From positions 1 to 43,599 of IMG/VR virus record IMGVR_UViG_3300009158_000005: 43,599 bases of DNA; one strand, 5' to 3'. The notes beneath the pieces are model-generated. The model saw nothing but the letters and a program-made list of their open reading frames with translations. It had not been told where the DNA came from and made no database searches. This DNA comes from a virus. This document shows, one piece after another, positions 3,399-17,477 of the stretch; position 1 is the first letter of the stretch; each line of letters opens with the position of its first letter. The translations under genes were made by a program, and so were the position numbers.

Positions 3399-3401
3399 CG
3401 G

Positions 3402-3713
3402 TTACTTTTTCTTCGAGGTTTCTTCCGGCAGATTCACACCAACCTCGGCGAGGCTGGTCGGGAGTTTGCTGACGGCGCCCGGGAAGAGCTTCTCCATCAC
3501 GGGTACGGTGTAAGCGTACTCCAGGCGATCGCGCTCAGCCTTGGCGTCAACCTGGGCGGTGCGGGTTTTCTTGATATTGACCAGTGCGTCATGGCCGTGA
3601 AGGGCCTTAAGCACAAGGATCTCGGGGGAGCTGACTTCCTTGATAACAGTGTTTTCAAGAGAGCCGGCGAGTCGGATTTCAACGTTGGCGTATTCCATAG
3701 GTGTTCCGAACAT
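3402..3713 (-). CDS. Hypothetical protein between capsid and tail tubular A
   Basis: 103 aa from ATG 3713 (MFGTPMEYANVEIRLAGSL); ATG 3698 (MEYANVEIRL) is also possible. The frame stays open to 3743, but starting there would run into the hairpin at 3746-3775, so a start inside the ORF is preferred. It is a small, mixed-charge soluble protein with a Lys-rich tail (EETSKKK) and no recognised domain. Position between major capsid and tail tubular A is where podoviruses often carry small head-completion or decoration proteins; that role is only inferred from context. Confidence 0.6.
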   Translation of the reverse strand: MFGTPMEYANVEIRLAGSLENTVIKEVSSPEILVLKALHGHDALVNIKKTRTAQVDAKAERDRLEYAYTVPVMEKLFPGAVSKLPTSLAEVGVNLPEETSKKK

Positions 3714-3741
3714 CGTGCCCCCCACGGGCGCTGTTGCAAGC

Positions 3742-3775
3742 AAAAGGGGGTGGTCTCCGTTAGGAAACCACCCCC
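3742..3775 (-). terminator. Hairpin terminator after the capsid gene
   Basis: On the minus strand a 9-bp perfect stem (GGGGGTGGT with ACCACCCCC, 3746-3754 and 3767-3775) with a 12-nt loop is followed by TTTTG. It lies 24 bp past the capsid stop. The T tract is short, so it may be a partial terminator that lets some transcripts into the tail genes and raises capsid mRNA relative to tail mRNA. Confidence 0.7.
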
Positions 3776-3798
3776 TGGGTGAGTCTATTGACTACCGA

Positions 3799-4845
3799 TT
3801 AGTCGGTGATTTCGTAGACGCCGGAGCCGTTGAACTGGGTGCCGACGAGACCGCCGGTCCAGGTCATGGCGCGGTACAGCACGTACTGGTCGTGCGGGCG
3901 GGCCGGGCTGTGGGTCTTGTTCTCCTCGCCGTCCATGACGTAGAGGTTGATCTTCGACTCGTCGATGAAGTACGCGCGGTTGGTGTAACCGAGGTCATCG
4001 AGGGTAGGATCGTAGACGAACTCACCGACGCCCTGCATGGTGATGCCGGCCAGACCGATGTCGGTCATGCCCTTGGCAAATCCCTGCTGGGTGAACGTAC
4101 CCTTCGAGGTGATCTCGAGGTCGAGCTTCTCGAGGAAGCCGGAACCGCAGAGAACCAGGGAGGGCTTGCCACCGAAGCGGGTCAGCTGGCGGATCTCCTT
4201 GCGGAGGTACTCGCTGATCTTCTGCTGGCCGGAGACATAGACGATCGCGTCAGCTCCGACTGCCGAGCGGTTGCGCCACTTGGCGTTGGTCGCGCGGTCG
4301 ATACCACCGACGGTGCCCGTGGTGGGGTCGTCCGTGATCAGGGAGAGGAGGCCTGGGACCTGCTTGGCGTCCTGGGTGCCGTCCTTCCAGAGCATGTCGT
4401 TGAACGAGCGGGACCAGCCTTCGTTCATGTCCTTGAGTTTCTCGTCGAGCAGGCCGGTCAGGACGGTGACGTCGCGCTCGGAGTGCTTGGAGGTGGACTC
4501 GCCGGACGTGCTGTCGACAACGGACAGGCCGTCGTGCTTGAGCTCGGTGAGGGTAAGGCTGATACCAGCGTGGATTTCCTTCCAGGGGAAGGAAGCGCGC
4601 TTGGTGTTAGCCGGATTGGCGTAGGAGACGGTGTCGTTGTGCGTGAAGCCAGCGATAGCCGTGGTGTAGTCGAAGACGACTGGCACCGTGATGGAGCCCT
4701 TGCCGCCCGGGAAAGACTTCTTCTTCTTGGACAGAGCCTTGAGAAGGGGTTTTTCCTGGATGGACTGAGCGAGCGCGCCACCCTTGATGTTGTAATCAAG
4801 AGCGGAGGCCGTGATATTAGCGAGTTCAGCGTTAGTGAATGCCAT
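3799..4845 (-). CDS. Major capsid protein
   Basis: 348 aa from ATG 4845 (MAFTNAELANITASALDY); the frame extends upstream to 4899 but would overlap the scaffold gene and starts poorly. Features fit an HK97-fold podovirus or P22-like coat: N-terminal helix, a beta-rich middle (GSITVPVVFDYTTAIAGF, WKEIHAGISLTLTELKHDG) and a C-terminal segment with AMTWTGGLVGTQFNGSGVY. It directly follows a scaffold-like gene and precedes the head-tail genes. The leader is A-rich on the minus strand (runs of A at -5 to -20) and has no SD. Very different codon-third GC from the AT-rich tail domains. Confidence 0.85.
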   Translation of the reverse strand: MAFTNAELANITASALDYNIKGGALAQSIQEKPLLKALSKKKKSFPGGKGSITVPVVFDYTTAIAGFTHNDTVSYANPANTKRASFPWKEIHAGISLTLTELKHDGLSVVDSTSGESTSKHSERDVTVLTGLLDEKLKDMNEGWSRSFNDMLWKDGTQDAKQVPGLLSLITDDPTTGTVGGIDRATNAKWRNRSAVGADAIVYVSGQQKISEYLRKEIRQLTRFGGKPSLVLCGSGFLEKLDLEITSKGTFTQQGFAKGMTDIGLAGITMQGVGEFVYDPTLDDLGYTNRAYFIDESKINLYVMDGEENKTHSPARPHDQYVLYRAMTWTGGLVGTQFNGSGVYEITD

Positions 4846-4876
4846 GGTATTTTTTTCTGTTTTTTTGAGGTGCTTG

Positions 4877-5911
4877 TTAGCGGGATGCCAGCATGCCACG
4901 CATTACCGCTTCTTTAAGCGATTGAGGCATGACAGTGGCGTTAGCGGACGACGTAGAGCTGGCGACGTTGGACACAGGTTGGCGCCGAGGCGCGAACCGA
5001 GACAGACGTTCCCTTACTGTGGAGTGGGCGCGCTCGACGAGCGCAAGAGCCTCCTCCGGGGTAGACGGTTGTTCGGCTGAAAGCATCAGCCTGACCTGGT
5101 CTGTCACCATCTCTTGTTTTGCAGACCAATCGGGATCCTTAATCTTCATCTGCTGTTCCCAACCTACCACGGCGGAATGGATACCTTGGCGTGCCTGATC
5201 GGCATGCTGTTGGATCGCCTGCGCCTGGCGCTCTTCTCCCAGACGTTGCTGGGCCTTGAGCGCGGCGAGCTCTTTCGCGGTGTCCTGGTCAATGAAGCCA
5301 TCGCGGACCTTTTCGGAAAGGTCCTCTGGCAACACTTCCCCGACTAGTGCGTCGAGCCGTGCCTTATAGTCGCTGATCCTCTTATGAGCTTCGACCGGGT
5401 TGGTCTTCATCAGGGCCATAATATGGAACCCCTCTGCGACCTCCTCGGTGTTAAGCCCATGCGAAGACATGAAAGTAGTGATCTTCCGGTATTCACCGGA
5501 GTCCGAACGGAATGCATCCCGCTCGTTGACCACTTCTTTCCAGCGTGGGTGGTTATGGAACGGCAACTTCTGATCGGCATCAGCGCTCGTCTTATCCTTG
5601 GCCTTGTCGTCCAGACTGGGCTGAGGGGACTGGGCATCCGATGCGGAAGCTCCGTTGTTCTCCACGGTGGACGATGCCGCGTCAGCCGCGGTCTTCCGCA
5701 CGGCGCTTTTTACGGCGTCGAGTAGAGACGTTGGCTTCTTGTTAGCGTCCTGGTCGCCCGCCCCCGACGAAATGGGCGTGCTATCTTGTTTAGCGTCGGC
5801 AACCTCAGGCGTAGCCTGGGTCGAAATGGGTTCGCTCGCCGGCGCGGAGGCCTGCGGCGTTTCGGAGATCGCTTCGGGTGCGACCTGTTCGTTAGTGTCG
5901 GTATCTGACAT
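4877..5911 (-). CDS. Scaffolding protein-like
   Basis: 344 aa. Residues 1-110 are low-complexity and acidic (rich in A, S, D, E, P, Q), the rest is strongly helical and charged (WKEVVNERDAF, DLSEKVRDGFIDQD, QRLGEERQAQAIQQHADQAR). Length, composition and position between portal and major capsid match podovirus scaffolds, which drive procapsid assembly and then leave. The C-terminal end (SLKEAVMRGMLASR) is basic, consistent with a coat-binding tail. Start ATG 5911 is preceded by an A-rich, SD-less leader. Confidence 0.75.
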   Translation of the reverse strand: MSDTDTNEQVAPEAISETPQASAPASEPISTQATPEVADAKQDSTPISSGAGDQDANKKPTSLLDAVKSAVRKTAADAASSTVENNGASASDAQSPQPSLDDKAKDKTSADADQKLPFHNHPRWKEVVNERDAFRSDSGEYRKITTFMSSHGLNTEEVAEGFHIMALMKTNPVEAHKRISDYKARLDALVGEVLPEDLSEKVRDGFIDQDTAKELAALKAQQRLGEERQAQAIQQHADQARQGIHSAVVGWEQQMKIKDPDWSAKQEMVTDQVRLMLSAEQPSTPEEALALVERAHSTVRERLSRFAPRRQPVSNVASSTSSANATVMPQSLKEAVMRGMLASR

Positions 5912-5944
5912 CGGTTGTTATTGTATGTTAGGTGTTACGGAAAA

Positions 5945-8062
5945 TCAAACGTTTGCTCCAGGCACGCCGTTCGCGCGGATTTGGGAGGGGGAAGGAGCCG
6001 GCGTAGGACCGTCGGTTCCGGGCGGAATCATCGGGGCCGGAGCATTCATGGCGCCGGCGCCACCTTGCATCGAAGGATCTGTGGCGGGATCTCCCATGCC
6101 GGACTGAGCTACGCTCTTCGCGGAGTTCATGGCGACGATCGACTGGAGGCCGGAGCCGATCGCGTCCTTAACGTCCATGCCGTCGTCCAGGCGCTTGATC
6201 GCCTCGCGGGCAAGCCACTCCGGCGAGATGCCGGGGATCTGGAGGAGGGTGGGCGCCAGTCGCTCAAAGTTCTGGATCTGGATCGCCTTGTTCGGTCGAC
6301 CGTTCGAGCCGGCCTCGACCTCCAGGAATAGCTCCTGGGCGATATCGCTTCCGGTAAGCTGTGGCCATACGGCTCCAGGGCCGGCGATCTTCTTGACGGT
6401 TGTCTCGTCCATCTCGAGGAGAAGTACCTGGCCGGTCGCGCGCGCGAGCTCGGATAGGAAGTCTTCGATGTCGTCGACATTCGACGAAAGGCTGGACATG
6501 CGTGAGCCCTCGGCCACGGAGACCTCGGTCGCGGTAGATCCGCCGGTGCCGCCGAGGTTAGCCTCCTGGGATCCGACTAGGCGCATCATGTCGTCCAATA
6601 GCATGGACGTGTCGTAGAGCGCGGCGTCGATCGGGGAGTGCTGGATTGGCTGGAGTATCGAGTTGACCGCCTGGCCTGGGTTCAAGTTGTTAAGCTTGAT
6701 GACCGCGTTGGCCGGGTGGGACTGGAGATTGATAATGTCCTTCTCGGACAGTGCGCCGTCGTACGTTGCGTAGGCAGGTCGGTTCGCGAAGCGGTGCTCG
6801 CGCAAGGACTGACGCGCGCGGTTGTACTCGCGCTGTACCGGAGTCAGAAGGCGGACGTCAGAAAGGGGATAGATGTCCTTGTCGGACTCGACCTCATTGA
6901 AGACCAGCGTAAAGAATGGCCAGAAGCGCTCGAGGTCAAGGACCGGTCGAGCCGGCTCCTTGAGGAAGTCGTAGTAGCCGTCGGCGACGACGTAGACCAG
7001 GCCGTCCTTCTTGGAGTAGATCTCCCAGACGACAACGCTCTTGCGATCATCGTCACCGGATCCGCCGTTTGGATCCTGGTACGCGGTGAAGGCCTTGCCG
7101 ATGTCGACCTTGTAGATCTCCTTAACTTCGTCTGCGTCCAGGATAAACTCCTGGGCGATCCAATCAGCGCCGACAAAGCCGGCGAGCTGGCGACACTTAG
7201 GGTCCGGAATGATCGTGGGCGAAAGTGGGAAGTCGAAGGCAATGCCCTCGCGGACGATCACGTCCTGCTTGGACTGGAGGTCCTTGAGCATGAGGCGGAG
7301 CTGTTCGAGCTTCTTGTCTTCTTCGGTGAAAATATTGTCCTGCTTGTCTGCAACGAGGCGTTCAAGCATGGTCATCTGCTCAGTGATGTCTGTGATCTTC
7401 TCGACGTCTTCTGGCCGTTTTTCCATGACGCGATTATATCCGAGCTTGAGAAAGCCGACTCCGGTCACGCACGTGCGTCGTACCAGCTGTTTCATCTGTC
7501 CCTTAAAGACGGGTTGCTGTTCCTGGATCTGATGCTGAGCGACGATCTCCATGGTCTTTGCGACCTTGTCGAGCATCAGGCGCTTGTCGTAGCCCTGCTT
7601 GATATCTTCTACTAACTGCAAAACAAGAGGATCGGGAGGCATGCCGGTCTGCTCTGAGGCCTGCATGGATGTTTGAACGCTTTGCACGCTGGACATTTCA
7701 CCGTCCCAGATCGAAAAATCTAAAGTGTTCCGGCGCTTCGCGGTGAACTTAGGGTTCTTCGCGTACATCTGCGAGACGCGCTGTGCGACGTGGCGCTGGA
7801 CGATATTGGCTACATAGCGGTCGTCCGTGTCGGAGCTTGACCACTGCTTGCCCATGTAAAAGTCCATGTCTTCGCGCATGCGATCAAAGGGCTTCTTCCA
7901 ATGTTTCTTGGCGCGGAGGACCTTGTCGGCCCAGTCTTTGACCAGGGCGGATCGGGATGGGCCGGGACGCTCGGAGTCACGTTTGATAGTGGGACCTTGC
8001 TCGACGGGCATGCCCATCGGGGGCTCAGTCATCGGATTCATGCCGGCAAAGTCGCTTTCCAT
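5945..8062 (-). CDS. Portal protein (podovirus/P22-like)
   Basis: 705 aa, the usual size of P22-type portals. Visible portal features: N-terminal FDRMREDMDFYMGKQW and RYVANIVQRHVAQRVSQMY, a central region with PLSPTIIPDPKCR, DRKSVVVWEIYSKKDGLVYVVADG and YNRARQSLREHRFANRP, and a C-terminal helical barrel-like segment ending in a Pro-rich tail (PAPMIPPGTDGPTPAPSPS). Forms the dodecameric vertex ring through which DNA is packaged. It begins 16 nt after the terminase stop. The start could also be an internal Met near residue 8. Confidence 0.88.
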   Translation of the reverse strand: MESDFAGMNPMTEPPMGMPVEQGPTIKRDSERPGPSRSALVKDWADKVLRAKKHWKKPFDRMREDMDFYMGKQWSSSDTDDRYVANIVQRHVAQRVSQMYAKNPKFTAKRRNTLDFSIWDGEMSSVQSVQTSMQASEQTGMPPDPLVLQLVEDIKQGYDKRLMLDKVAKTMEIVAQHQIQEQQPVFKGQMKQLVRRTCVTGVGFLKLGYNRVMEKRPEDVEKITDITEQMTMLERLVADKQDNIFTEEDKKLEQLRLMLKDLQSKQDVIVREGIAFDFPLSPTIIPDPKCRQLAGFVGADWIAQEFILDADEVKEIYKVDIGKAFTAYQDPNGGSGDDDRKSVVVWEIYSKKDGLVYVVADGYYDFLKEPARPVLDLERFWPFFTLVFNEVESDKDIYPLSDVRLLTPVQREYNRARQSLREHRFANRPAYATYDGALSEKDIINLQSHPANAVIKLNNLNPGQAVNSILQPIQHSPIDAALYDTSMLLDDMMRLVGSQEANLGGTGGSTATEVSVAEGSRMSSLSSNVDDIEDFLSELARATGQVLLLEMDETTVKKIAGPGAVWPQLTGSDIAQELFLEVEAGSNGRPNKAIQIQNFERLAPTLLQIPGISPEWLAREAIKRLDDGMDVKDAIGSGLQSIVAMNSAKSVAQSGMGDPATDPSMQGGAGAMNAPAPMIPPGTDGPTPAPSPSQIRANGVPGANV

Positions 8063-8077
8063 TTCAGTCTTTTTTGT

Positions 8078-9667
8078 TCAGAAGCCACCCATCCGCAAGA
8101 GATTGCGCTGGGTCTCCTCCCACTTGGAGGAGAGTTTGACCCATCCGAGAGTGCCACTCTTGGGCATAGTAGGCTCCTTGACGGTAACCTGGGATGCGCC
8201 CAGGGCACGGCCGAGACCCATGCCCACGTGGGCCAGGGCGTCGACAAAGTCGTCGTGCCGTGCTGACGGGAACTTGAGGAGCTCGGCTTCGGCTTCGCCC
8301 CACCAGGGTGCGAACTTGGGGAAATAGACCTTGCCCATGGCCATGCGTCCGCGGATCGCCTGGGCGCGCGTCTGCTTGTCCTTGACCGGTGTGACCTCCT
8401 CGACCGCGGTATAGACGCCACGCTCCTGCTGTACCTTGCGAAGGAAGGGGCCGATAGACTTTGAGATATGGCCACGTTCGGCCCACCAGATCGTGGGGCG
8501 CCGGCGCTCCATGAGCTCGATCATGCCCTCGATGACCTGGTCGGTCTCGGCCTTTCGCCACCAGACGTCCGGCAGGACCCAGATATTGTCATTCTCGTCC
8601 AGGCCGATCGGGAGCAGGCACGTCTTGTCCGCCTGCTGTGAGGTAGAGACGGCGTGGTCGCTCGCGACGTAGATCCGCAGGTTCTTGGGTAGCTGGTCCG
8701 GCTGGTAGAACTTGAGCCACTCGCGTTTAAAGAAGTCGCCGTCGTCCGGAGTAGGATTGCCCTGGTAGAGCGCGGAGAAGCCGGTCGGATCCTGGAGCTT
8801 GGCTTCGTTCAGGAAGTCCAGGCTGAAACGTTCAGGCCACAGGGCCTCACCTGGCTGTCGACCCATGGGGTCGTCGTTCACCGCGATCGCCGGCAGGGAG
8901 AGCACGCGCCACTTCTTGGCGATCTCCTCGCGGTAGCAGGGGTTGCTCGGGTCCGTAAGCCGGCCGATCAGGTCATCCTCGTGCCAGCGTGTCATGATAA
9001 TGACGACGCGTCCTCCGGGCATGAGTCGGGAGAAGGCCTCCTGGGTGAACCATGTCCAAAGCTTTTCGCGCGCCGACTGAGAGTCTGCTTCCTCGCGGCC
9101 CTTGACCGGGTCGTCAATGATCATGAGATCTGCGCCCTTACCGGTGAGACCACCGCCGACGCCGACGAACTGGCCGAGGCCACCTTCCTCAGTCTCGATG
9201 CGGTTCGCGGACGCGGAGCCCAGGCGGAGCTTGCAGTTGGGGAAGACCTGGGTGAAAGACGGAAGGCGCATGATCTCGCGCACCTTTCGACCGAAGCTCT
9301 CGGCGAGCTCGGCGTTGTACGTCGCGAACAACACCTGGCGGTAAGGATCTCGCCCCAGGAACCAGGCCGGGAAACGGCGAGAGGCGAGTTCTGACTTACC
9401 GTGGCGCGGAGGCATCGAGATGATCAGGCGCTGATAGTGCCCCTTCTCGACCTCTTCGAGCGCCGCGCAGATCGTCTCGTGATGTCGCACCGGCTCGTAC
9501 ATCGAGAGCGTCGGATCGTCCGGATCCTTCGGGTCCGGCATGGTCACCGAAGTGAAGCCGAGCATAGACTCGCGCGCCTTGCGGATCGCGAGCAGGCGCC
9601 GCGCCGCGGTCAGCATGCGCTCCTGCTCGGCGAGATCTGCTTGCTCCGTCGTCGGTTTTTTAGCCAT
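8078..9667 (-). CDS. Terminase large subunit
   Basis: 529 aa. ATPase domain: Walker A-like MPPRHGKSE at residues 85-93, Walker B LMIIDDP near 183, and coupling motif MTRWHEDD. C-terminal RNase H-like nuclease domain: YVASDHAVS (first Asp), WAERGHISKSIGPFLRKV and the distal HDDFVDALAH (last Asp). It cuts and pumps DNA into the procapsid with the portal. The start codon overlaps the stop of the 62-aa ORF as TAATG, so translation is probably coupled. The small subunit is not adjacent; it is encoded at 17787-18395. Confidence 0.95.
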   Translation of the reverse strand: MAKKPTTEQADLAEQERMLTAARRLLAIRKARESMLGFTSVTMPDPKDPDDPTLSMYEPVRHHETICAALEEVEKGHYQRLIISMPPRHGKSELASRRFPAWFLGRDPYRQVLFATYNAELAESFGRKVREIMRLPSFTQVFPNCKLRLGSASANRIETEEGGLGQFVGVGGGLTGKGADLMIIDDPVKGREEADSQSAREKLWTWFTQEAFSRLMPGGRVVIIMTRWHEDDLIGRLTDPSNPCYREEIAKKWRVLSLPAIAVNDDPMGRQPGEALWPERFSLDFLNEAKLQDPTGFSALYQGNPTPDDGDFFKREWLKFYQPDQLPKNLRIYVASDHAVSTSQQADKTCLLPIGLDENDNIWVLPDVWWRKAETDQVIEGMIELMERRRPTIWWAERGHISKSIGPFLRKVQQERGVYTAVEEVTPVKDKQTRAQAIRGRMAMGKVYFPKFAPWWGEAEAELLKFPSARHDDFVDALAHVGMGLGRALGASQVTVKEPTMPKSGTLGWVKLSSKWEETQRNLLRMGGF

Positions 9668-9855
9668 TACGCCTTGGGAGCGATAGGCTTAGCGGGAGCG
9701 TTTGGATCAACATAATCCGTGATGCCATCGTCCGTGGTCAAGATGGGCAACTTGGTGGCGATGGCTACTCGGTCATCTGCTTGGGAATACAAAATGCCAC
9801 GCACTCCGTCTTTAACTTTGTCGCCCTTTGGGTTTGGTTGGAATAGGTAACGCAT
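9667..9855 (-). CDS. Hypothetical 62-aa protein before terminase
   Basis: 62 aa, MRYLFQPNPKGDKVKDGVRG with the C-terminal end DPNAPAKPIAPKA. No domain recognised. It starts 11 nt after the tail-fibre stop in an AT-rich spacer and its stop overlaps the terminase start (TAATG), which supports it being a real gene that couples translation to terminase. Confidence 0.6.
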   Translation of the reverse strand: MRYLFQPNPKGDKVKDGVRGILYSQADDRVAIATKLPILTTDDGITDYVDPNAPAKPIAPKA

Positions 9856-9866
9856 ATAATAAATTA

Positions 9867-12023
9867 TTATTCTTCGGGTGGTGGTGGTGGAGGTATTTCT
9901 TCGTTATAATAAACATTCCATCCAAGCTCATCGACCAGATAAAGTAACGATGAGTTGTCTGCCAAAATCTGTCCGTTTGACCCGCCAGAGATATCCAAAA
10001 ATCCGGTATCTACTCCGTTGCTGATAATTGCATCTATTACATCAACAACATTTGAAATGCTATTACCCCCTAAATAAACAAATTGTAACATTGGACAGGT
10101 TGAAAGAATACCTCCACCGGGGAAAGAAGGTAACGCATTGTTTTCCATATTTACTTCTGAAAGGTGCGGAGATTGATAGATGGAAGGCCATGTGGATAAT
10201 CCTCCTTTTATTCTTAAGTATTCTAATTTTGGAAAGTAATCAGAAGCATCATAATAAAACTGAGTTATGCTTGGATCTTCAATGTCTAATGAAACAAGAT
10301 TGGGGGCTGAACTATACACTCCGATATAGGAACCAGAACCAAAATTGTGGGCATATATTGTTTCAGCGTATTGCGAGTTTAATACTCCAACCTTTGTCCC
10401 GCTTTGCATAATGAAACATTTTTCAATAGGTGTTACGTCCAAAACCATAGAGCCACCACCTATTCCTTCAAATTGCAAAACCGTAAACGGAAGTGATGCC
10501 GCCGTGGTTTGCACCGTAGCGTCCGGGAAAGTGATGCCGCCAGCTCGCATCTGAGTCATTCCAGTCTCATCCTGCACCGTAATCACGTCATGCTCGATCC
10601 ACGCGGAGTGAGGCGTCGCACCCATATCTTCAAAGCCGATATACTCGTTGGTGAAGTAGGCCGTCTGGTCGGGAGTGTCGATGTGCTGGATCGTGACGGA
10701 GTCGTGGGCAATAGACACGCCCAGCTCATTGGTAGACTCAAAGACCTTAACCAGATCAGGGGATACGTTGACGTAGTACGGCGTAGCGTTGGCGACATTG
10801 ATGCCGGTATGGGCAACCTCGACGCCGTTGTCGGTGGAGCTGTCCCAGGCGCGAAGCGTCGTACCAGCCAGAGAGTCGAGGTAGAGCGGACGAGGGGTGG
10901 AGCTACCTTGATTGGTAGTCGTCAGCCAGCCTGCTTGCCAGTTAAACTCGTAGCCGATGGAGCAGACTAAACTGATGCCGTAGTTGCCACCGCGAGACGT
11001 GTCGAACTGACCCTTGCCAATGAACTGTCCGGACGTTCCATCGAAGGTGATGTTGCCAGTCATCGTGCCGCCTGCCAAGGGAAGGTATGATCCACCGCCG
11101 CCACCGCCTGTGTAAGCCGTGGTCTGGATTGAACCGTCATTAAAGGAGATGCTTGCAACGGTTTGTAATCCATCTGCTGTAACGAAAAGTTCGTTACCAG
11201 AAGTGATACTATTAAAGTAAAGTTGGTTTGAATTAAGTGTTAATATGTTTCCATTTACACTTATTCCCAGTGACTCAGCATCAAACCACGAGTTTGTGCC
11301 TGTATTGGTAAACGAAATACCATACTCTGTGTGACTTGATGTGGATGCACCTCCGCTGTTTATGTCGATTGCCCCAGTCACCGTCCCGCCAGTCAGCGGA
11401 AGGAAAGAACCTCCGCTACCAACCACTTCCCATACTCCGTCCTTGCGGCCATAGGAAGATCCGTCCGAAGGTGCGTCTGTAAGGTATCCTTGGGTCGTGA
11501 CACTATTTGCCGCGTCCTGCGCCACCTGGGCGTGCACGATAGCGGAGTTTTTGGCCTGGAGCGCGGCGTTTGCGTAGCCTTGAGCCGTGCCGGCGTAGCC
11601 GTTCGCCAGGACCGCAGAAGATGCCGCGACGTCCGCCGAGGTATCGGCCGCGGAAGCGGCGCCGAGCGCGTCGATCGCATTCTGAGACGTTAAAACCGCC
11701 TCAAGTTCAGCCACCTTTGCGTCGCCGGAGGCGACAATCAAGCCAATCTGCTGAGCTCCAGCGTCCTCGATAGCCTGGATCGGTGCGTCCGTGAGCAATG
11801 GCTCGACGGCTTCGGCGATTACCTGAATATTGAGGGCACTTGTGCGGATCTTTCCGTCGTCTGCCTGGATCTCGCCTAGGCGAACCTGCGAGGAATTGAG
11901 GGCGGCACGTACCGCGTTGAGCTCCTGGTCGACCTTCTGGCCCGGTAGGGGCGCAGTGGGGTTTGCAGTCTGGTAATCTGTGAAATTGTACTGCCGGTCG
12001 TACGGCGCAGGAGGCTGACTCAT
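9867..12023 (-). CDS. Tail fibre with C-terminal leucine-rich repeats
   Basis: 718 aa from ATG 12023 (MSQPPAPYDRQYNFTDYQTA), the conserved N-terminal form of podovirus fibres that attach to the tail; an in-frame ATG nine codons upstream adds MHLLDTTDR and is less likely. The middle has an Ala-rich coiled-coil stretch (ADTSADVAASSAVLANGYAG) and fibre repeats LPLTGGTVTG (about 205) and LPLAGGTMTG (about 312), and two F-D---QTTA repeats. The C-terminal 180 aa look like leucine-rich repeats (PKLEYLRIKGG, PHLSEVNMENN, PMLQFVYLGGNS) and end in IPPPPPPEE. DNA for this end (about 9890-10500) is AT-rich, pointing to an acquired receptor-binding module. First gene of the minus-strand virion block. Confidence 0.8.
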   Translation of the reverse strand: MSQPPAPYDRQYNFTDYQTANPTAPLPGQKVDQELNAVRAALNSSQVRLGEIQADDGKIRTSALNIQVIAEAVEPLLTDAPIQAIEDAGAQQIGLIVASGDAKVAELEAVLTSQNAIDALGAASAADTSADVAASSAVLANGYAGTAQGYANAALQAKNSAIVHAQVAQDAANSVTTQGYLTDAPSDGSSYGRKDGVWEVVGSGGSFLPLTGGTVTGAIDINSGGASTSSHTEYGISFTNTGTNSWFDAESLGISVNGNILTLNSNQLYFNSITSGNELFVTADGLQTVASISFNDGSIQTTAYTGGGGGGSYLPLAGGTMTGNITFDGTSGQFIGKGQFDTSRGGNYGISLVCSIGYEFNWQAGWLTTTNQGSSTPRPLYLDSLAGTTLRAWDSSTDNGVEVAHTGINVANATPYYVNVSPDLVKVFESTNELGVSIAHDSVTIQHIDTPDQTAYFTNEYIGFEDMGATPHSAWIEHDVITVQDETGMTQMRAGGITFPDATVQTTAASLPFTVLQFEGIGGGSMVLDVTPIEKCFIMQSGTKVGVLNSQYAETIYAHNFGSGSYIGVYSSAPNLVSLDIEDPSITQFYYDASDYFPKLEYLRIKGGLSTWPSIYQSPHLSEVNMENNALPSFPGGGILSTCPMLQFVYLGGNSISNVVDVIDAIISNGVDTGFLDISGGSNGQILADNSSLLYLVDELGWNVYYNEEIPPPPPPEE

Positions 12024-12189: not shown

Positions 12190-12374
12190 GATCTAATCGC
12201 GCGCCCATGGCGCGATCTAACCGCGCGCGCGGAGTTAGCATGGCATCGCCTTGGGGAGGCAGTAACAGCCTCATCCGATCAACGACTTACGCATCGATCA
12301 GGTGCCGATCTGCGTGCCTGGTCCTCTAACGCGCACGCGCGGTTAGATCCGCGCGCCGGCCGGGCGGTTAGATC
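12190..12374. repeat. Four GGTTAGATC-like motifs in mirror symmetry
   Basis: Plus-strand copies at 12341-12349 and 12366-12374; minus-strand copies at 12214-12222 and 12190-12198 (the last with one change). Each is flanked by GCGCG-type sequence. Spacing within each pair is about 24-25 bp, so the two pairs mirror each other around about 12282. This arrangement suits a dimeric DNA-binding protein at an origin or operator. Confidence 0.6.
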
Positions 12375-12521
12375 CGAGGCTTCAACCGGCCCGCCGATCC
12401 GGCGCCGATCTCGGCCGGCTGGAGCGCGCGCGAGGTGGCAGGTGATCGGGGGGAATTGAGACGGTTTTGAGACAGCGATCGCCGGCCCGATCCGTCGCCG
12501 ATCCGTCGCGCCGTCGGCAAG

Positions 12522-12540
12522 TTGGCACGGCCCCTGCTTA
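12522..12540 (+). promoter_or_regulatory. Sigma-54-like promoter element 1
   Basis: TTGGCACGGCCCCTGCTTA matches the -24/-12 pattern (TTGGCACG-N4-TTGC) with the essential GG and GC separated by exactly 10 nt. It points to the small-gene operon. An identical 22-bp unit recurs 36 bp downstream. No enhancer-binding protein gene was seen, so a host factor would be required. A paired operator is the alternative. Confidence 0.5.
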
Positions 12541-12557
12541 CGGTCGGTCATTCTGAC

Positions 12558-12576
12558 TTGGCACGGCCCCTGCTTA
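12558..12576 (+). promoter_or_regulatory. Sigma-54-like promoter element 2
   Basis: Second identical copy of the TTGGCACGGCCCCTGCTTA element, 36 bp after the first, with flanking CGG also shared. If used, initiation would fall near 12585, leaving a leader of about 310 nt before the first ribozyme. Confidence 0.5.
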
Positions 12577-12897
12577 CGGCGTCGCCCTGGTGCCGATCCT
12601 GAGCTCCTGGCGCCTGGTGCAGATCGGCCGATCGGCGGAGGATCTACGCGAAGTTCTGAGATTTTTTTGCTGTTGGATTTCATTGCCAGACAACGACTTA
12701 CAGATCCGACTGAAAAATGTCGTTGAACATTTCGGATCGCTTGACCAGTGTGCCGTCGTCGCTGATGCCTACGGGCCGACCCCACGGGGTTCAGATCGCC
12801 GACCGACACCCGGAAAGACGGGACCCGTTTTTTGACATTCAGCAGATCCCCTCACGCCGGCAATCGAACCGGAGAGCCTGCTGTGCCCACCCCAACA

Positions 12898-12962
12898 GGG
12901 CGAAACGCCCCCAGCCCACAAGGCCGGGCGTAGCACCGGTAAAGCCGGTGCCTGATGAGCCC
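12898..12962 (+). ncRNA. Type II hammerhead ribozyme 1
   Basis: Stem II GGGC (12898-12901) pairs with GCCC (12959-12962). GAAA core 12902-12905. Stem III is closed: ACGCCC (12905-12910) with GGGCGT (12926-12931), then an interior loop and GCC/GGC. Cleavage triplet GUA, cut after A12932. Stem I GCACCGG (12933-12939) pairs with CCGGTGC (12945-12951), loop UAAAG. Core CUGAUGA 12952-12958. Stem II is the open helix, so the topology is type II. It lies in the 5' leader of the operon, 27 nt before the first start codon, and differs from the other four in its stem II sequence and larger stem III. Confidence 0.88.
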
Positions 12963-12988
12963 AGTAGGTTCAACCAACCAACAACACC

Positions 12989-13240
12989 ATGAAAAACTAC
13001 AGCATGACCGCAATGATCAAACACGCATCCAATGAAGCCCAGGCTTGGTTACTCCACCCGTTCGTCTGCTACTCCGACACGAACAAGGGTTACGACCAAG
13101 CGGTGCAGGCCCATCGGGACCTGATGGACTTCGAGCTCGGATCCGACGAGCACCCGGATGTCCAGCAGGCCCTCGTCGACCGGCGCTGGGAAATGGCCGA
13201 GTACTACCAGCGCCTGCGTGGCTGGGATGTCCGGTGCTAA
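12989..13240 (+). CDS. Small hypothetical protein, first gene of ribozyme operon
   Basis: 83 aa, MKNYSMTAMIKHASNEAQAW, with an acidic middle (DFELGSDEHPDVQQALVD) and an aromatic/basic end (WEMAEYYQRLRGWDVRC). No known domain. Start ATG 12989 follows a CAACCAACCAACAACACC leader without SD. Its TAA stop lies 2 nt before ribozyme 2. Such early small-gene clusters in phages often hold host-takeover or anti-defence proteins; nothing in the sequence proves this here. Confidence 0.75.
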   Translation: MKNYSMTAMIKHASNEAQAWLLHPFVCYSDTNKGYDQAVQAHRDLMDFELGSDEHPDVQQALVDRRWEMAEYYQRLRGWDVRC

Positions 13241-13242
13241 CA

Positions 13243-13294
13243 GATCGAAACGCCCCACGGGGCGTCGCAGGGTAAGGCCCTGCCTGATGAGATC
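13243..13294 (+). ncRNA. Type II hammerhead ribozyme 2
   Basis: Stem II GATC (13243-13246) with GATC (13291-13294). GAAA 13247-13250. Stem III ACGCCC (13250-13255) with GGGCGT (13260-13265), loop CACG. Triplet GUC, cut after C13266. Stem I GCAGGG (13267-13272) with CCCTGC (13278-13283), loop UAAGG. Core CUGAUGA 13284-13290. All invariant core positions are present. It starts 2 nt after the stop of the upstream gene. Confidence 0.92.
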
Positions 13295-13326
13295 AACCAA
13301 CAACCCAACCCAAAACCCAACCCAAC

Positions 13327-13665
13327 ATGACCAAAAAAACCAACGATGAAAAAGGCAACCTGATGCAAACCGCCAGCAAGATCCGCGAACTCCGGCGCGA
13401 CGCCGAGGCCAAGGGCGACAAGCTCCTGGCCCTGGCGCTCAACACCGCCGACAACGCTCTGATGTCGATGGCCTGCTCGAAGGCCGAGCACCGCGTGACC
13501 CTCAGGGACGGCGCGATCCGCGACGCCGGCCGGTACGTCGAGCTCTGGCACAGCTCCGGCACGGCCGAGCGCGAGACGAACGCGTGGATCGCCAGCCTGA
13601 CGCCGGCCGACATCGAGCGGATCGAGAAGATCAGCCCGGACTTCAAGATCCCCCGCGCGGTGTAA
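13327..13665 (+). CDS. Small hypothetical protein, second gene of ribozyme operon
   Basis: 112 aa, MTKKTNDEKGNLMQTASKIR. Mostly helical and charged (RELRRDAEAKGDKLLALAL, AGRYVELWHSSGTAERETNA), with a C-terminal SLTPADIERIEKISPDFKIP segment. No domain recognised. Start ATG 13327 follows a leader of repeated AACCCA units; an internal Met at residue 13 is less likely. The TAA stop directly abuts ribozyme 3 with no gap. Confidence 0.8.
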   Translation: MTKKTNDEKGNLMQTASKIRELRRDAEAKGDKLLALALNTADNALMSMACSKAEHRVTLRDGAIRDAGRYVELWHSSGTAERETNAWIASLTPADIERIEKISPDFKIPRAV

Positions 13666-13722
13666 GATCGAAACGACCGGCAAGGGCCGGCGTCGTGACG
13701 TTACGCGTCACCTGACGAGATC
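13666..13722 (+). ncRNA. Type II hammerhead ribozyme 3
   Basis: Stem II GATC (13666-13669) with GATC (13719-13722). GAAA 13670-13673. Stem III ACG-CCGGC (bulged A13676) with GCCGG-CGT (13686-13693), loop AAGG. Triplet GUC, cut after C13694. Stem I GTGACG (13695-13700) with CGTCAC (13706-13711), loop UUACG. Core CUGACGA 13712-13718; C at the variable position 7 is allowed. Begins immediately after the upstream stop codon. Confidence 0.92.
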
Positions 13723-13749
13723 GTAAAACCCAACAAAACCCAACCCAAA

Positions 13750-14163
13750 ATGACCCAACCCAAATACACTGAAAACCCCATGGCCTGCCTCCGCTCGATC
13801 GTCGCCAACGCGACTTACGTCCGGATCAGCAGGCTCAACAAAAAGGCCGAAGAGGCTAAGCGCACGGCGGAGATCGCCCAGAGCGAGCTCGACAGCGCCC
13901 TGGCCGAAGCCGAGGCCGGCACGTTCAACGACATCGATTGCATCGCGATCTGCACCGGCGACAGCGACTGCTGGGCCGAGGTTTGCCGGCGTGTCAAGGT
14001 GCTCGACAACGGCGAGTCCTGGGGCCCGATGTACCAGCGCGTGAGCTCTCACCCGGCCGACCGCGAAGACTACGACGTGGCCCTGCTGGCGAAGATCTTC
14101 CCCGACTTCAACCCGGCCCCCGGGATCATGGAAGGCCTGGGGATCTACAAGGCCAACAAGTAA
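13750..14163 (+). CDS. Small hypothetical protein, third gene of ribozyme operon
   Basis: 137 aa, MTQPKYTENPMACLRSIVAN. A coiled-coil-like stretch (KKAEEAKRTAEIAQSELDSA) is followed by a Cys-containing middle (DIDCIAICTGDSDCWAEVCR) and a C-terminal DFNPAPGIMEGLGIYKANK. The four clustered Cys residues are notable but not arranged as a standard zinc finger. Leader of AACCCA repeats, no SD. TAA stop 2 nt before ribozyme 4. Confidence 0.8.
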   Translation: MTQPKYTENPMACLRSIVANATYVRISRLNKKAEEAKRTAEIAQSELDSALAEAEAGTFNDIDCIAICTGDSDCWAEVCRRVKVLDNGESWGPMYQRVSSHPADREDYDVALLAKIFPDFNPAPGIMEGLGIYKANK

Positions 14164-14165
14164 TA

Positions 14166-14215
14166 GATCGAAACGCCGTGAGGCGTCTCCGGGTAATGCC
14201 CGGACTGATGAGATC
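14166..14215 (+). ncRNA. Type II hammerhead ribozyme 4
   Basis: Stem II GATC (14166-14169) with GATC (14212-14215). GAAA 14170-14173. Stem III ACGCC (14173-14177) with GGCGT (14182-14186), GNRA loop GTGA. Triplet GUC, cut after C14187. Stem I TCCGGG (14188-14193) with CCCGGA (14199-14204), loop UAAUG. Core CUGAUGA 14205-14211. This is the most compact copy (50 nt). Starts 2 nt after the upstream stop. Confidence 0.92.
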
Positions 14216-14239
14216 CAACCCAAACCCAAACCCAACAAA

Positions 14240-14509
14240 ATGCACATCGAACACAACGTCGCCGTCAACGTCATGACGGAAGAGAAAACCAAGATCCTGC
14301 GCGGGATCAACGCGGTCCACCGGACCCTCCGGGACATGGAGGCCGACGCGGAGTACCTCAAGCTCACCCCCGAGCAGACCACCGCGATCCGCGTGGCCAG
14401 CGAGCTGGTGATGTCGGCGCTCGTCAACATGGACCCCGACTCGAGCCGGCGCGGGGCCGACGAGCACTACCACATCGCTCTTTACCAGGCGATCGGGGCC
14501 AAGTACTAG
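14240..14509 (+). CDS. Small hypothetical protein, fourth gene of ribozyme operon
   Basis: 89 aa, MHIEHNVAVNVMTEEKTKIL; predicted helical bundle (NAVHRTLRDMEADAEYLKL, EQTTAIRVASELVMSALVNM). No domain recognised. ATG 14240 follows an AACCCAAACCC leader; Met12 is an alternative start. The TAG stop lies 2 nt before ribozyme 5. Confidence 0.78.
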   Translation: MHIEHNVAVNVMTEEKTKILRGINAVHRTLRDMEADAEYLKLTPEQTTAIRVASELVMSALVNMDPDSSRRGADEHYHIALYQAIGAKY

Positions 14510-14511
14510 CA

Positions 14512-14569
14512 GATCGAAACGCGACCGGAGGCCGGCGCGTCGCACCGTTACGCGGTGCCTGACGAGATC
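14512..14569 (+). ncRNA. Type II hammerhead ribozyme 5
   Basis: Stem II GATC (14512-14515) with GATC (14566-14569). GAAA 14516-14519. Stem III ACGCG-CCGG (bulged A14524) with CCGG-CGCGT (14532-14540). Triplet GUC, cut after C14541. Stem I GCACCG (14542-14547) with CGGTGC (14553-14558), loop UUACG. Core CUGACGA 14559-14565. It shares the stem III bulge and loop I with ribozyme 3 but has different helix sequences. Confidence 0.92.
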
Positions 14570-14604
14570 GTAAACAACCAACCCCAAACCCAACACCAAC
14601 ACCC

Positions 14605-14970
14605 ATGAAAGACCGAGACAACCACAACCAACGCACCGGCGCCTCGCTGGTGCTTCAGGCCCGCGACGCATCGCTGGGCTACGACGCCATGATCCGCAAC
14701 CTCAGGATCCTCGCCAGGACCGCCGAGAACTTCGGCGTCATCCTGGACTACAACGAGGGCACCGTGACGGCCACCGGCGTCGACGCGTGCCTCGTCGTCG
14801 AATACGAGCGCGCCCGGGCGCGCGGTCGACGCGACGCGAGCTACCAGTGCTTCCGCGATCAAACCCAAGCCGGCTCATTCCTCGAAAGCAAGCTCGACCT
14901 GCTCGCCAGTGTCGCCGACGCCATGGGCGTTGACCTCGTCCAGTGGGGCACTTACCACGAGACCCTCTAA
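14605..14970 (+). CDS. Small hypothetical protein, fifth gene of ribozyme operon
   Basis: 121 aa, MKDRDNHNQRTGASLVLQAR. Mixed alpha/beta character (YDAMIRNLRILARTAENFGV, TATGVDACLVVEYERARARG). No domain recognised. Last gene preceded by a ribozyme; the next gene follows 13 nt later with only a CCCCAACCCAACC leader between, so genes five to eight stay on one message. Confidence 0.78.
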   Translation: MKDRDNHNQRTGASLVLQARDASLGYDAMIRNLRILARTAENFGVILDYNEGTVTATGVDACLVVEYERARARGRRDASYQCFRDQTQAGSFLESKLDLLASVADAMGVDLVQWGTYHETL

Positions 14971-14983
14971 CCCCAACCCAACC

Positions 14984-15220
14984 ATGAACAACAAGCACAA
15001 GCACAAGCTGTCGGACCTTCGCAAGTTCGCCGGCACCCTCGGCCTCGAGATCGCCAAGTACAGCCCCGGCGACGGGCGCACGCGGTACAAGCTGGTCCGG
15101 ATCGGCCAGCAGTACTTCGAGACGGACGGCTATTACCGTCCGGCAACCCTGAGCGAAGCCCACGCCTTCCTGGCCGGGCTCGCCTTCAGGAACCACGCCT
15201 TGGAGGGGGGTCAGGTATGA
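14984..15220 (+). CDS. Small hypothetical protein, sixth gene of ribozyme operon
   Basis: 78 aa from ATG 14984 (MNNKHKHKLSDLRKFAGTLG), chosen because a CCCAACCCAACC leader sits just before it; the frame is open further upstream but overlaps the previous gene. Basic start, then LVRIGQQYFETDGYYRPATL and a helical end. The fold order could suit a small nucleic-acid-binding protein, but no motif proves it. Its stop overlaps the next start (ATGA). Confidence 0.75.
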   Translation: MNNKHKHKLSDLRKFAGTLGLEIAKYSPGDGRTRYKLVRIGQQYFETDGYYRPATLSEAHAFLAGLAFRNHALEGGQV

Positions 15221-15627
15221 CCCTCAAGATCGGCGTCGCGGTCGACGGCAAGCTGATGATCACCCTTGAGGGCGATCCCCTCAGCCTGCTGGTCTTCCTG
15301 CGCGACGAGGTCGTCGATTACGGCGACCGCGAGATCACCCTGTCCTTCGGGCCGGGCCAGCTGGAGATCCCGGCCGGCCAGTCCCTCGACGACGCGATCC
15401 GGGGCGCCCACGAGGAGCTCCAGGATCCCGACCTGGTCTTCGATGATCCGGCCGAAGAGGCCAGGACCCGTCTGGTCGTGCGCAACCTGTACCTCGCGCT
15501 CATGCTCGATACCACCGACCTGGTCGTCGAGCAGATCGAGGAGATCGAGGCCGGCGACCACTCCGAGGACGCCGGCGCCCGGTACGACCGGTACGACGAG
15601 CTCAAGGAGGGCGAGAGTTACAACTGA
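15217..15627 (+). CDS. Acidic hypothetical protein, seventh gene
   Basis: 136 aa, MTLKIGVAVDGKLMITLEGD. N-terminal beta-rich half (REITLSFGPGQLEIPAGQSL) and very acidic C-terminal half (VVEQIEEIEAGDHSEDAGAR). A DNA-mimic-like charge pattern is possible but not demonstrated. Start overlaps the upstream stop (ATGA) and, unlike its neighbours, has a good SD-like GGAGGGGGG just upstream, inside the previous gene. Confidence 0.75.
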   Translation: MTLKIGVAVDGKLMITLEGDPLSLLVFLRDEVVDYGDREITLSFGPGQLEIPAGQSLDDAIRGAHEELQDPDLVFDDPAEEARTRLVVRNLYLALMLDTTDLVVEQIEEIEAGDHSEDAGARYDRYDELKEGESYN

Positions 15628-15629
15628 CC

Positions 15630-15848
15630 ATGATCCGCTTCATCACGCGGTACAACCTGGTCGACGTCAACGATGGCACCCAGGATCCCGAGGTCTGGGA
15701 CATGGTGCCGGCCAAGCGCGGGGTCTACGTCGAGTACGACGACTACATGGTCGTCGTCCGCGAGCTCAAGCGCGAGATCGCCCACCTGAAGGGCGAACAC
15801 TCCGGCGAGGATCCTCCCGCTTCCCCTCAGATGCCGGACGGCTACTGA
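15630..15848 (+). CDS. Acidic hypothetical protein, eighth gene
   Basis: 72 aa, MIRFITRYNLVDVNDGTQDP; then VYVEYDDYMVVVRELKREIA and a Pro-rich end. No domain recognised. Begins 2 nt after the previous stop, so probably coupled. Last gene before the strong terminator. Confidence 0.7.
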   Translation: MIRFITRYNLVDVNDGTQDPEVWDMVPAKRGVYVEYDDYMVVVRELKREIAHLKGEHSGEDPPASPQMPDGY

Positions 15849-15859
15849 CCTAGACAGAC

Positions 15860-15888
15860 AACCCACCCTTCGCGGGGTGGGTTTTTTT
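15860..15888 (+). terminator. Rho-independent terminator of the small-gene operon
   Basis: Perfect 8-bp stem ACCCACCC (15861-15868) with GGGTGGGT (15875-15882) and loop TTCGCG, then a run of T to 15888. It lies 13 bp after the last gene and separates the operon from the convergent rusA gene, whose stop is at 15893. There is no T run on the minus strand, so it is directional. Confidence 0.92.
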
Positions 15889-15892
15889 GTGC

Positions 15893-16306
15893 CTAGTCGA
15901 TCCAGCTGGGGGCCGTCCGGGACGAGCGCCGGTCCTCGTTCAGGTAGATCAGGACGCCGGGCTTAGCGCCGTAGCTCTTCTTGATCAGTAGTTGGGACAC
16001 AATTGCGTCGTCGCCGATCATGCCGGCGCGCATGAGGCAGTCCAGTATCAGCTTGGCCAGGTTGTCGGCGTCGGGCCTGGCGGTGTGCGCTTCGCCATCC
16101 TGGTGGGCTTTGCCGGCCGGGAAGGTAAAGTTTAGGCCCACGAACAGTCCCCCCTTCAGCGGGGCATCCTGATGCCTTAGCTCGCGCGCCTTGGCCTCGA
16201 CCGCGGAGATCCACCGCTTCGCGTTGGCATCGGCGCAAGAGATCACCCTGCCCCGGACAAACCTGGGTCGGGGCTGGGGCCTGGGGATCCCGTCGACAAA
16301 GAGCAT
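15893..16306 (-). CDS. rusA: RusA-like Holliday junction resolvase
   Basis: 137 aa from ATG 16306 (MLFVDGIPRPQPRPRF). The frame also allows ATG 16321, but CAACCCATC directly precedes the internal ATG, the same leader as at 22293, so it is preferred. RusA hallmarks: N-terminal basic PRPQPRPRF, the acidic active-site region RPDADNLAKLILDCL and MIGDDAIV with conserved Asp residues. RusA cuts four-way junctions as a dimer; in phages it resolves recombination or replication intermediates before packaging. Last gene of the minus-strand replication block. Confidence 0.88.
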   Translation of the reverse strand: MLFVDGIPRPQPRPRFVRGRVISCADANAKRWISAVEAKARELRHQDAPLKGGLFVGLNFTFPAGKAHQDGEAHTARPDADNLAKLILDCLMRAGMIGDDAIVSQLLIKKSYGAKPGVLIYLNEDRRSSRTAPSWID

Positions 16307-16659
16307 GATGGGTTGCACCATTGAACCGTAAAACCCAACCCAATTCCGCGCAAGAGATCTGGGGATGTGGTTTGGTTGTATGGTATCATGCGGATCGGCA
16401 CCCCTAGGGGCGTGCCCCGAGGACGCTAGTACATACTAGTATACTGCCTCGGCGTCCTCGAGCTCCGAAAATGAGAGTTAAGTACCGTGCTATCAGTGAC
16501 TTAACTCGAGGACGTTTGGATCAAAAAAAGACGCGTCCTCGCGTCCTCGTTTTAAAAACCTCACTTAACCCACTGTCATTGCGTCACTTACAGAAACGTC
16601 CCCGCGTCCTCAAACCGCCGAGGACGCGCGAGGACGCGACGAGGACGCGATCCGCGTCC
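16307..16659. promoter_or_regulatory. 353-bp intergenic region with iteron cluster
   Basis: No gene seen. Between rusA and the 94-aa gene. It holds a palindrome-rich start (GGCACCCCTAGGGG, then CGTGCC, 16397-16416), the perfect palindrome CTAGTA-CA-TACTAG (16426-16439), an AGTTAAGT/ACTTAACT inverted repeat (16476-16483 and 16499-16506) and about ten GAGGACGC iterons (separate entry). Its density of repeats is like a replication origin or a complex operator. Confidence 0.7.
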
Positions 16660-16661
16660 TC
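16419..16661. repeat. GAGGACGC iteron cluster
   Basis: Nine exact copies of the octamer: plus strand at 16419, 16620, 16630, 16641; minus strand (GCGTCCTC) at 16452, 16533, 16541, 16604, 16654; plus one 7/8 copy at 16508. Two minus copies are directly tandem (16533-16548), and three plus copies are spaced 10-11 bp, one helical turn. Likely binding array for a replication initiator or regulator. Confidence 0.85.
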
Positions 16662-16944
16662 AATCCAGGTCTGACAGATCGATCCCTTCGGCGTGCTCCA
16701 TGATCTCGTCGAGCAGGCCGGGCACCTCGTCGACGTCTACCTCGTCCTCGGTAGACTCGGTGATCTCGTAGGCCACGATCTGCGTCTCGTCCCAGTCAAT
16801 CTCCCAGTGACCGCACTCCTCGGTCTGGCGCCGGCCTCCGCCGTCGTGGTCGAAGGAGTCGTCCTCCCACTGGCCCTCGATCTCCAGCTCGACGCTGTAG
16901 TATGCGCCGGCGTGCTCGATGTTGAATTGTTTGGTGATACTCAT
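16660..16944 (-). CDS. Acidic hypothetical protein
   Basis: 94 aa, MSITKQFNIEHAGAYYSVEL, very acidic (WEDDSFDHDGG; STEDEVDVDEVPGLLDEIME). Beta-rich N-terminal half. No known family. Its start overlaps the stop of the upstream 54-aa gene (ATGA). Leader carries CCCACCCCAATTCTACC. The stop codon lies inside the last iteron of the GAGGACGC cluster. Confidence 0.7.
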   Translation of the reverse strand: MSITKQFNIEHAGAYYSVELEIEGQWEDDSFDHDGGGRRQTEECGHWEIDWDETQIVAYEITESTEDEVDVDEVPGLLDEIMEHAEGIDLSDLD

Positions 16945-17105
16945 GGTAGAATTGGGGTGGGTTGCAACTTGTTGCGGGCCAGGAGATCCTTCCAGCGTTC
17001 GCGGTCCTTCGCGGTCATGCGCTTGATCGGCGCCGACTCGAAGGGGGTGAGTAGCTTGAGGCCTGGCGTGGCCCGGGCTTCCTGGGGTGTCTTCGCGGTC
17101 TTCAT
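16941..17105 (-). CDS. Very small basic protein (54 aa)
   Basis: 54 aa, MKTAKTPQEARATPGLKLLT, then a basic helix (KRMTAKDRERWKDLLARNKL). Begins 1 nt after the stop of the upstream membrane gene and ends in an ATGA overlap with the next gene, which supports it as real. No family recognised. Confidence 0.65.
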   Translation of the reverse strand: MKTAKTPQEARATPGLKLLTPFESAPIKRMTAKDRERWKDLLARNKLQPTPILP

Positions 17106-17106
17106 G

Positions 17107-17271
17107 TTACTTGCGGACACTGATCAGGAGCGCGATCCCCCCGACGGCGTAGGCGAACCACATGACGGCCAGGACCGGCCGGCCCATGAACAGGCACGCG
17201 ACGCCGGCGGAGAGGTAGGCGGCTGAGGCAATGCCGGGCACGACCAGGGTGGTGAACACGTCCAGGCTCAT
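17107..17271 (-). CDS. Small membrane protein (54 aa)
   Basis: 54 aa, MSLDVFTTLVVPGIASAAYL. Two hydrophobic segments (about residues 8-29 and 32-50) joined by a short GRP loop, ending SVRK, so probably a two-pass inner-membrane protein. Start overlaps the upstream stop (ATGA). A role in lysis timing, superinfection exclusion or membrane anchoring of replication is possible; none is shown. Confidence 0.68.
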   Translation of the reverse strand: MSLDVFTTLVVPGIASAAYLSAGVACLFMGRPVLAVMWFAYAVGGIALLISVRK

Positions 17272-17477
17272 CGGTTGCCCTCCTGGTCCCGGATCCCAAA
17301 CGTGTCGTTCCGGACCAGCTTGAATTGGTCGGTGGTCATGTGCCGGATCACGCCGTCCTCGTCGAGCACGATCGCGAACACGTCGTTCGAGAAGGCGCCC
17401 CCGTCACGGACGTAGATCAGCATCCCATACCCGAGCGGTGTCTCGACCGGCATGGGGTTGCGGAACTCGTGGATCAT
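17268..17477 (-). CDS. Small hypothetical protein (69 aa)
   Basis: 69 aa from ATG 17477 (MIHEFRNPMPVETPLGYGML). A compact beta-rich protein (LIYVRDGGAFSNDVFAIVLD, DGVIRHMTTDQFKLVRN). Both ends overlap neighbours by ATGA, the tight packing typical of this block. No domain recognised. Confidence 0.7.
   Translation of the reverse strand: MIHEFRNPMPVETPLGYGMLIYVRDGGAFSNDVFAIVLDEDGVIRHMTTDQFKLVRNDTFGIRDQEGNR

Follow-up and report, generated by a model that had tools for sequence, protein, structure and literature searches.

Why should a phage place a self-cleaving ribozyme in front of each of five consecutive genes? The question is raised by a 43,599-base virus record, the whole of which is called here the window; it carries tailed-phage genes (terminase, portal, major head protein, primase/helicase and a Sak4-like protein) and contains five type II hammerhead units (HH1 to HH5), all on the + strand, one preceding each of the genes g1 to g5. 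These ribozymes are almost certainly real and, judging from the sequence, we are fairly confident that their main effect would be the co-transcriptional self-cleavage of one polycistronic phage transcript into mRNAs.

All units share one layout, in which the 5' strand of stem II is followed by GAA, the stem III hairpin, A or C at position 17, the stem I hairpin, CUGAYGA and the 3' strand of stem II. The core typical of type II (CUGANGA and GAAA, with H and not G at the cleavage site) is present in five of five, and three stems surround it, I and III closed by loops and II open, stem III being interrupted by an internal loop in HH1 and by a bulged A in HH3 and HH5. HH1 (12898..12962, +) has GGGC/GCCC as stem II and GUA at the cleavage site, and its predicted cut lies after A12932. 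The other predicted cuts lie after C13266 in HH2 (13243..13294, +), after C13694 in HH3 (13666..13722, +), after C14187 in HH4 (14166..14215, +) and after C14541 in HH5 (14512..14569, +), HH3 and HH5 having the core variant CUGACGA. In four of the five units stem II is the self-complementary GATC. The circular order with its open stem II, the core variants, the GUA of HH1 and the predicted cleavage positions all agree with the original prediction, which had been made from the bare sequence.

The core pattern has five matches in the window and none in 100 shuffles, and the core combined with a three-stem descriptor again has five, whereas 60 shuffled windows and the opposite strand give none. 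Moreover, a covariance model (R1) was built from 22 units of other phage contigs, excluding the window sequences and including one unit (L151) from a contig with a related terminase. Its search of the window returned exactly five units, namely HH1 (41.5 bits, E 1.9e-11), HH2 (70.0 bits, E 5e-21), HH3 (48.9 bits, E 6.1e-14), HH4 (61.1 bits, E 4.8e-18) and HH5 (53.0 bits, E 2.5e-15); the next match had an E value of 0.26, and the R1 search gave no sixth unit in the window. Pattern, descriptor and model therefore place the five hammerheads where they had first been proposed.

A search with the Rfam hammerhead models had been suggested as a check, and its answer was divided. RF02276 (Hammerhead_II) listed three window units, HH1 and HH2 at 30.9 bits each and HH4 at 25.2 bits, with two units unlisted, and at its gathering cut-off of 37 bits it recovered none of the five. 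Reading this null result as a refutation was considered and rejected, because RF02276 still reaches 25-31 bits on three units and the independent model R1 detects all five strongly. RF02276 is identical to the window units in permutation, core and cleavage site, but it models two stem II pairs whereas the window units have four, and they score 25-31 bits or nothing.

The minimum-energy fold is the hammerhead fold for HH1, HH2, HH4 and HH5. Related records allowed the pairing to be followed further: in 14 distinct units from the window, L206, L209 and the fragment L103, 99.1% of the pair cells form, for 10 of the 16 pairs both partners have changed, the compensation preserving the pair, and covariation scores 0.463, compared with 0.126 for shuffled alignments and at most 0.049 for slid partners, none of 500 shuffles scoring as high, all in an alignment that was fitted to the model and is biased towards it. 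Across these relatives the changes in stems I and III are compensated; the counterpart of HH2 in L206, for example, has C-G in stem I in place of A-U. The earlier statement that stems I and III differ between copies and are nevertheless fully paired was thus borne out for the covariation, but not for the full pairing, given the imperfections of stem III in HH1, HH3 and HH5. Bulges in two units, a competing fold in one and scores under the Rfam cut-off are what might be expected of inactive relics, or of chance hairpins that resemble hammerheads. We regard this explanation as extremely improbable, since the core is intact in five of five, chance matches are zero, the stems covary and the units are conserved in relatives.

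Free of this model-fit bias is a search of IMG/VR by core sequence only, in which 104 of 106 units form five or more pairs in stem I, in a set that was selected for GATC in stem II and is not representative of all phage hammerheads. The stem I hairpin is exactly 17 nt long in 98 of these 106 units, and the first loop position is U in 98 of 98. Such a constant length and loop nucleotide suggest some other tertiary contact. A pseudoknot between loop I and the 3' tail is common among the published type II ribozymes, not obligatory for members, and that study describes it as important for rapid cleavage of the ribozymes it tested (PMC3088659). Among the phage units this pairing is no commoner than shuffled pairings (7 of 131 units, 6.6 expected), and the pseudoknot was dropped as a general feature of these units.

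The units belong to an operon of eight genes, g1 to g8 (12989-15848), and one lies ahead of each of the first five genes, as originally described; the last three have none. Units 2-5 begin 0-2 nt past the stop codon of the preceding gene, the distance from the end of the unit to the next ATG is 24-35 nt in five of five, and the leaders from predicted cut to ATG would measure 52-63 nt. The genes without ribozymes are packed differently, g6 (14984-15220, +) starting 13 nt past g5, g7 (15217-15627, +) overlapping g6 by 4 nt and g8 (15630-15848, +) starting 2 nt past g7. The operon ends at an intrinsic terminator (15860..15883, +) with a 10-pair stem followed by Ts, and the same hairpin is found in L206, L220 and L103.

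The same arrangement is seen in relatives. L205 is the same phage, with 100% protein identity and an identical set of five units. In L206 and L209 (the same records as L218 and L220, respectively) the terminase is about 94% identical to that of the window phage, and the order is unit, g1, unit, another gene, unit, g5, g6 and g7, with g8 additionally in L206. In L103 a g3 homologue is followed by unit, gene, unit, gene, gene, unit, g5, g6 and g7, one junction being free of a unit. Units precede g1 and g5 in both relatives that have both genes, a hammerhead precedes the g5 homologue in each of L209, L206 and L103, and none precedes g6-g8, whose homologues (g6-g8 in L206, g6-g7 in L209 and L103) stand in the same order and are likewise ribozyme-free. 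HH1 has an orthologous unit in L206 and L209, conserved together with its 3' tail, and L103 has a unit nearly identical to HH5 in front of another gene. More distant terminase relatives have one or two units, mostly starting 0-4 nt past a stop codon. No hammerheads were found in the stretches examined of Microcystis phage Mae-Yong1326-1 and Rhizobium phage RHph_N65, the best annotated isolates among the terminase relatives, and L207 and L208 were matched by the pattern with a CA-rich leader, yet no unit was seen in them.

The genes between g1 and g5 are swapped among the relatives and the units persist at most junctions. In addition, unit halves appear reassorted: the second unit of L209 combines the stem III of the window's HH4 with the HH2 stem I, and in the third unit of L206 an HH5 stem III is joined to a stem I loop and core resembling those of HH2. 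Since the phage also encodes a Sak4-like annealing protein and an exonuclease, the units could be chiefly DNA elements whose repeated cores act as recombination joints for the exchange of gene cassettes, cleavage being secondary. This is quite improbable in our view, because recombination alone would not keep the pairing through double changes, nor the catalytic core, the single orientation and the spacing from stop codon to ribozyme to start codon.

The position of the units, their conservation in relatives and the single terminator at the end of the operon strongly suggest that the transcript would be processed into mRNAs with defined ends. In line with this, a simple scan found no sigma-70-like promoter in 12200-17400. 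As active type II hammerheads, the five units would cut the transcript during its synthesis, each cut falling between the stem III and stem I hairpins. With the type II order placing a local hairpin on either side of the cut, both new ends would be hairpins, and on folding of the predicted cleaved ends both of them form; by geometry, hammerheads of types I and III leave one end unpaired each. The upstream mRNA would end in the stem III hairpin with a 2',3'-cyclic phosphate, about 24-32 nt past the stop codon, and the downstream mRNA would start at a 5'-OH with the stem I hairpin, after which comes a short leader rich in CA. It had been proposed that cutting at all sites gives monocistronic mRNAs with defined 5' ends. 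This would hold for g1, g2, g3 and g4 only, as g5-g8 would stay joined in one mRNA reaching to the terminator.

In bacterial RNA turnover 5'-OH and hairpin ends slow decay, and a likely benefit of the processing is that the hairpin-capped ends would resist exonucleases. Moreover, the 5'-triphosphate end would be removed, HH1, which lacks an upstream partner gene, acting on the 5' end only, and accessory genes that are easily exchanged could be expressed independently of each other. From the observed sequence, structure, covariation, position and conservation we infer the cleavage, the effect on stability and the benefit to the phage.

Some observations weigh against processing as the main effect. 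For HH3 an alternative fold lies 1.1 kcal/mol below the hammerhead fold (minimum energy -23.4, hammerhead fold -22.3 kcal/mol). The pseudoknot between loop I and tail is possible in only two of the five window units, with four pairs in HH3 and HH5 (UUAC with GUAA) and at most two in HH1, HH2 and HH4. Being simple, the sigma-70 scan leaves room for phage-type promoters between the genes. Finally, many relatives in the same terminase group have no detectable units, and the system is therefore dispensable.

HH1, ahead of the first gene, has no two genes to separate, and L206 and L209 retain it together with its 3' tail; in addition, ribosomes terminating 0-2 nt upstream of a unit could disturb its stem II. 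Both points would suit active units whose chief role is to regulate mRNA amount, with cleavage serving as a switch that a protein, ribosomes or ions would tune, and not to separate genes constitutively. Such a role seems unlikely, as the units show no conserved sensor domain or ligand pocket, stem III varies in length and sequence, and similar units precede unrelated genes in many phages.

The self-complementary stem II common to four of the five units has another consequence, since any upstream half therefore fits any downstream half. The gene segments might thus be circularised to single-gene mRNAs, or joined together, by ligation run by the ribozymes or by a host ligase of the RtcB type. 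We hold this to be very improbable; circular or joined products were sought in the published arrays and, according to Perreault et al. 2011 (PMC3088659), none were found.

Searches of g1-g5, g7 and g8 against PHROG and Pfam gave no usable match, and g6 has a weak match to a family of unknown function and nothing else. All of g1 to g5 are on the + strand and of unknown function. Gene g1 (12989..13240, 83 aa) has homologues at the equivalent place in L206 (80%) and L209 (68%). Gene g2 (13327..13665, 112 aa) is the open frame between HH2 and HH3, and g4 (14240..14509, 89 aa) that between HH4 and HH5, the only other copy of each being in the near-identical L205. Gene g3 (13750..14163, 137 aa) has a 35% homologue in L103, and g5 (14605..14970, 121 aa), the last gene preceded by a ribozyme, has homologues in L209 (72%), L206 (51%) and L103 (38%). 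The leaders of g1-g6 (12989-14984) are CA-rich (AACCCAACCC) and lack a Shine-Dalgarno sequence; a leader of this kind is missing from most other genes of the window.

Upstream of HH1 there is no same-strand gene with a known relative, and a conserved stretch facing a divergent reading frame is found instead. This stretch (12270-12840) contains repeated GATCGGC- and TTGGCACGGCCCCTGCTTACGG-like segments, is conserved with insertions and deletions in L218 and L220, and overlaps a partly conserved reading frame, 12279-12809 on the minus strand. It ends in a conserved TTTTTTGACA, some 50-60 nt before HH1 in the window and nearer to it in the relatives, and is possibly a promoter or origin region. 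Past the operon, at 16527-16548, there are repeated GAGGACGCG segments with terminator-like hairpins, which are also present in L103 at about 3530-3760. Elsewhere in the window a 3321-codon reading frame (30475-40440, minus strand) has no Pfam match; in the related Microcystis phage Mae-Yong1326-1 a gene of 7.3 kb carries the annotation peptidoglycan transglycosylase.

How widespread are such arrays? The GATC-stem pattern was found in at least 119 stretches in viral contigs, compared with 15 in bacterial and archaeal genomes totalling 257 billion bases. Three of its matches (L230, L233) lie on one contig of a Pyrinomonadaceae metagenome-assembled genome (JALHNX010000012.1), possibly in a prophage. 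Arrays longer than the five units of the window occur in the uncultured phages L087 (10 type II units, 5454-11441, minus strand), L097 (9 units, 6181-11521, minus strand) and L095 (8 units, 3035-6289, plus strand), and L038 and L054 of IMG/VR have 7 type II units each. As in the window, these are coding-strand units placed between consecutive genes, from stop to start; the arrays of 7-10 units accompany different genes, and several have AGGAG Shine-Dalgarno-like leaders whereas those of the window are CA-rich. Among 70 units of 13 phage loci, 48 have both a stop codon lying -3 to 15 nt away and a start codon no more than 45 nt away, compared with 4.8% of random positions in the same spans.

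These arrays also bear on novelty. The original prediction knew of no described operon with a hammerhead before each of five consecutive genes, and this was too strong, because Perreault et al. 2011 (PMC3088659) already gives clustered hammerheads flanking single genes in prophages, proposes processing into operon- or gene-length mRNAs, and reports a triple Agrobacterium array of similar arrangement that cleaves in vitro and in E. coli; the IMG/VR phages with 7-10 units add to this. The window shows the same kind of cluster, with several coding-strand hammerheads flanking single genes in a phage genome. It differs from the published clusters in having five units, all of type II, one for each of the operon's first five genes and in an uncultured phage, and nearly all related phage units differ from the published type II ribozymes in their rigid 17-nt stem I hairpin, the published pseudoknot not being enriched. 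Relative to the openly licensed PMC literature, what is new here is this rigid stem I hairpin without the published pseudoknot, together with the conservation at gene junctions across relatives. Long arrays may since have been reported elsewhere.

A 2017 review (PMC6155905) links prokaryotic hammerheads to phages and to small non-conserved ORFs and leaves their role open. The phage described here offers a clean system for asking whether such ribozymes serve to separate genes, to set 5' ends or to stabilise mRNAs, since it combines a compact operon with five units, a conserved unit before the first gene, a three-gene tail free of units and relatives that differ by single cassettes. Moreover, arrays with as many as ten units, set in the gaps from stop to start codon, suggest that hammerheads are a common and little-noticed punctuation of phage operons.
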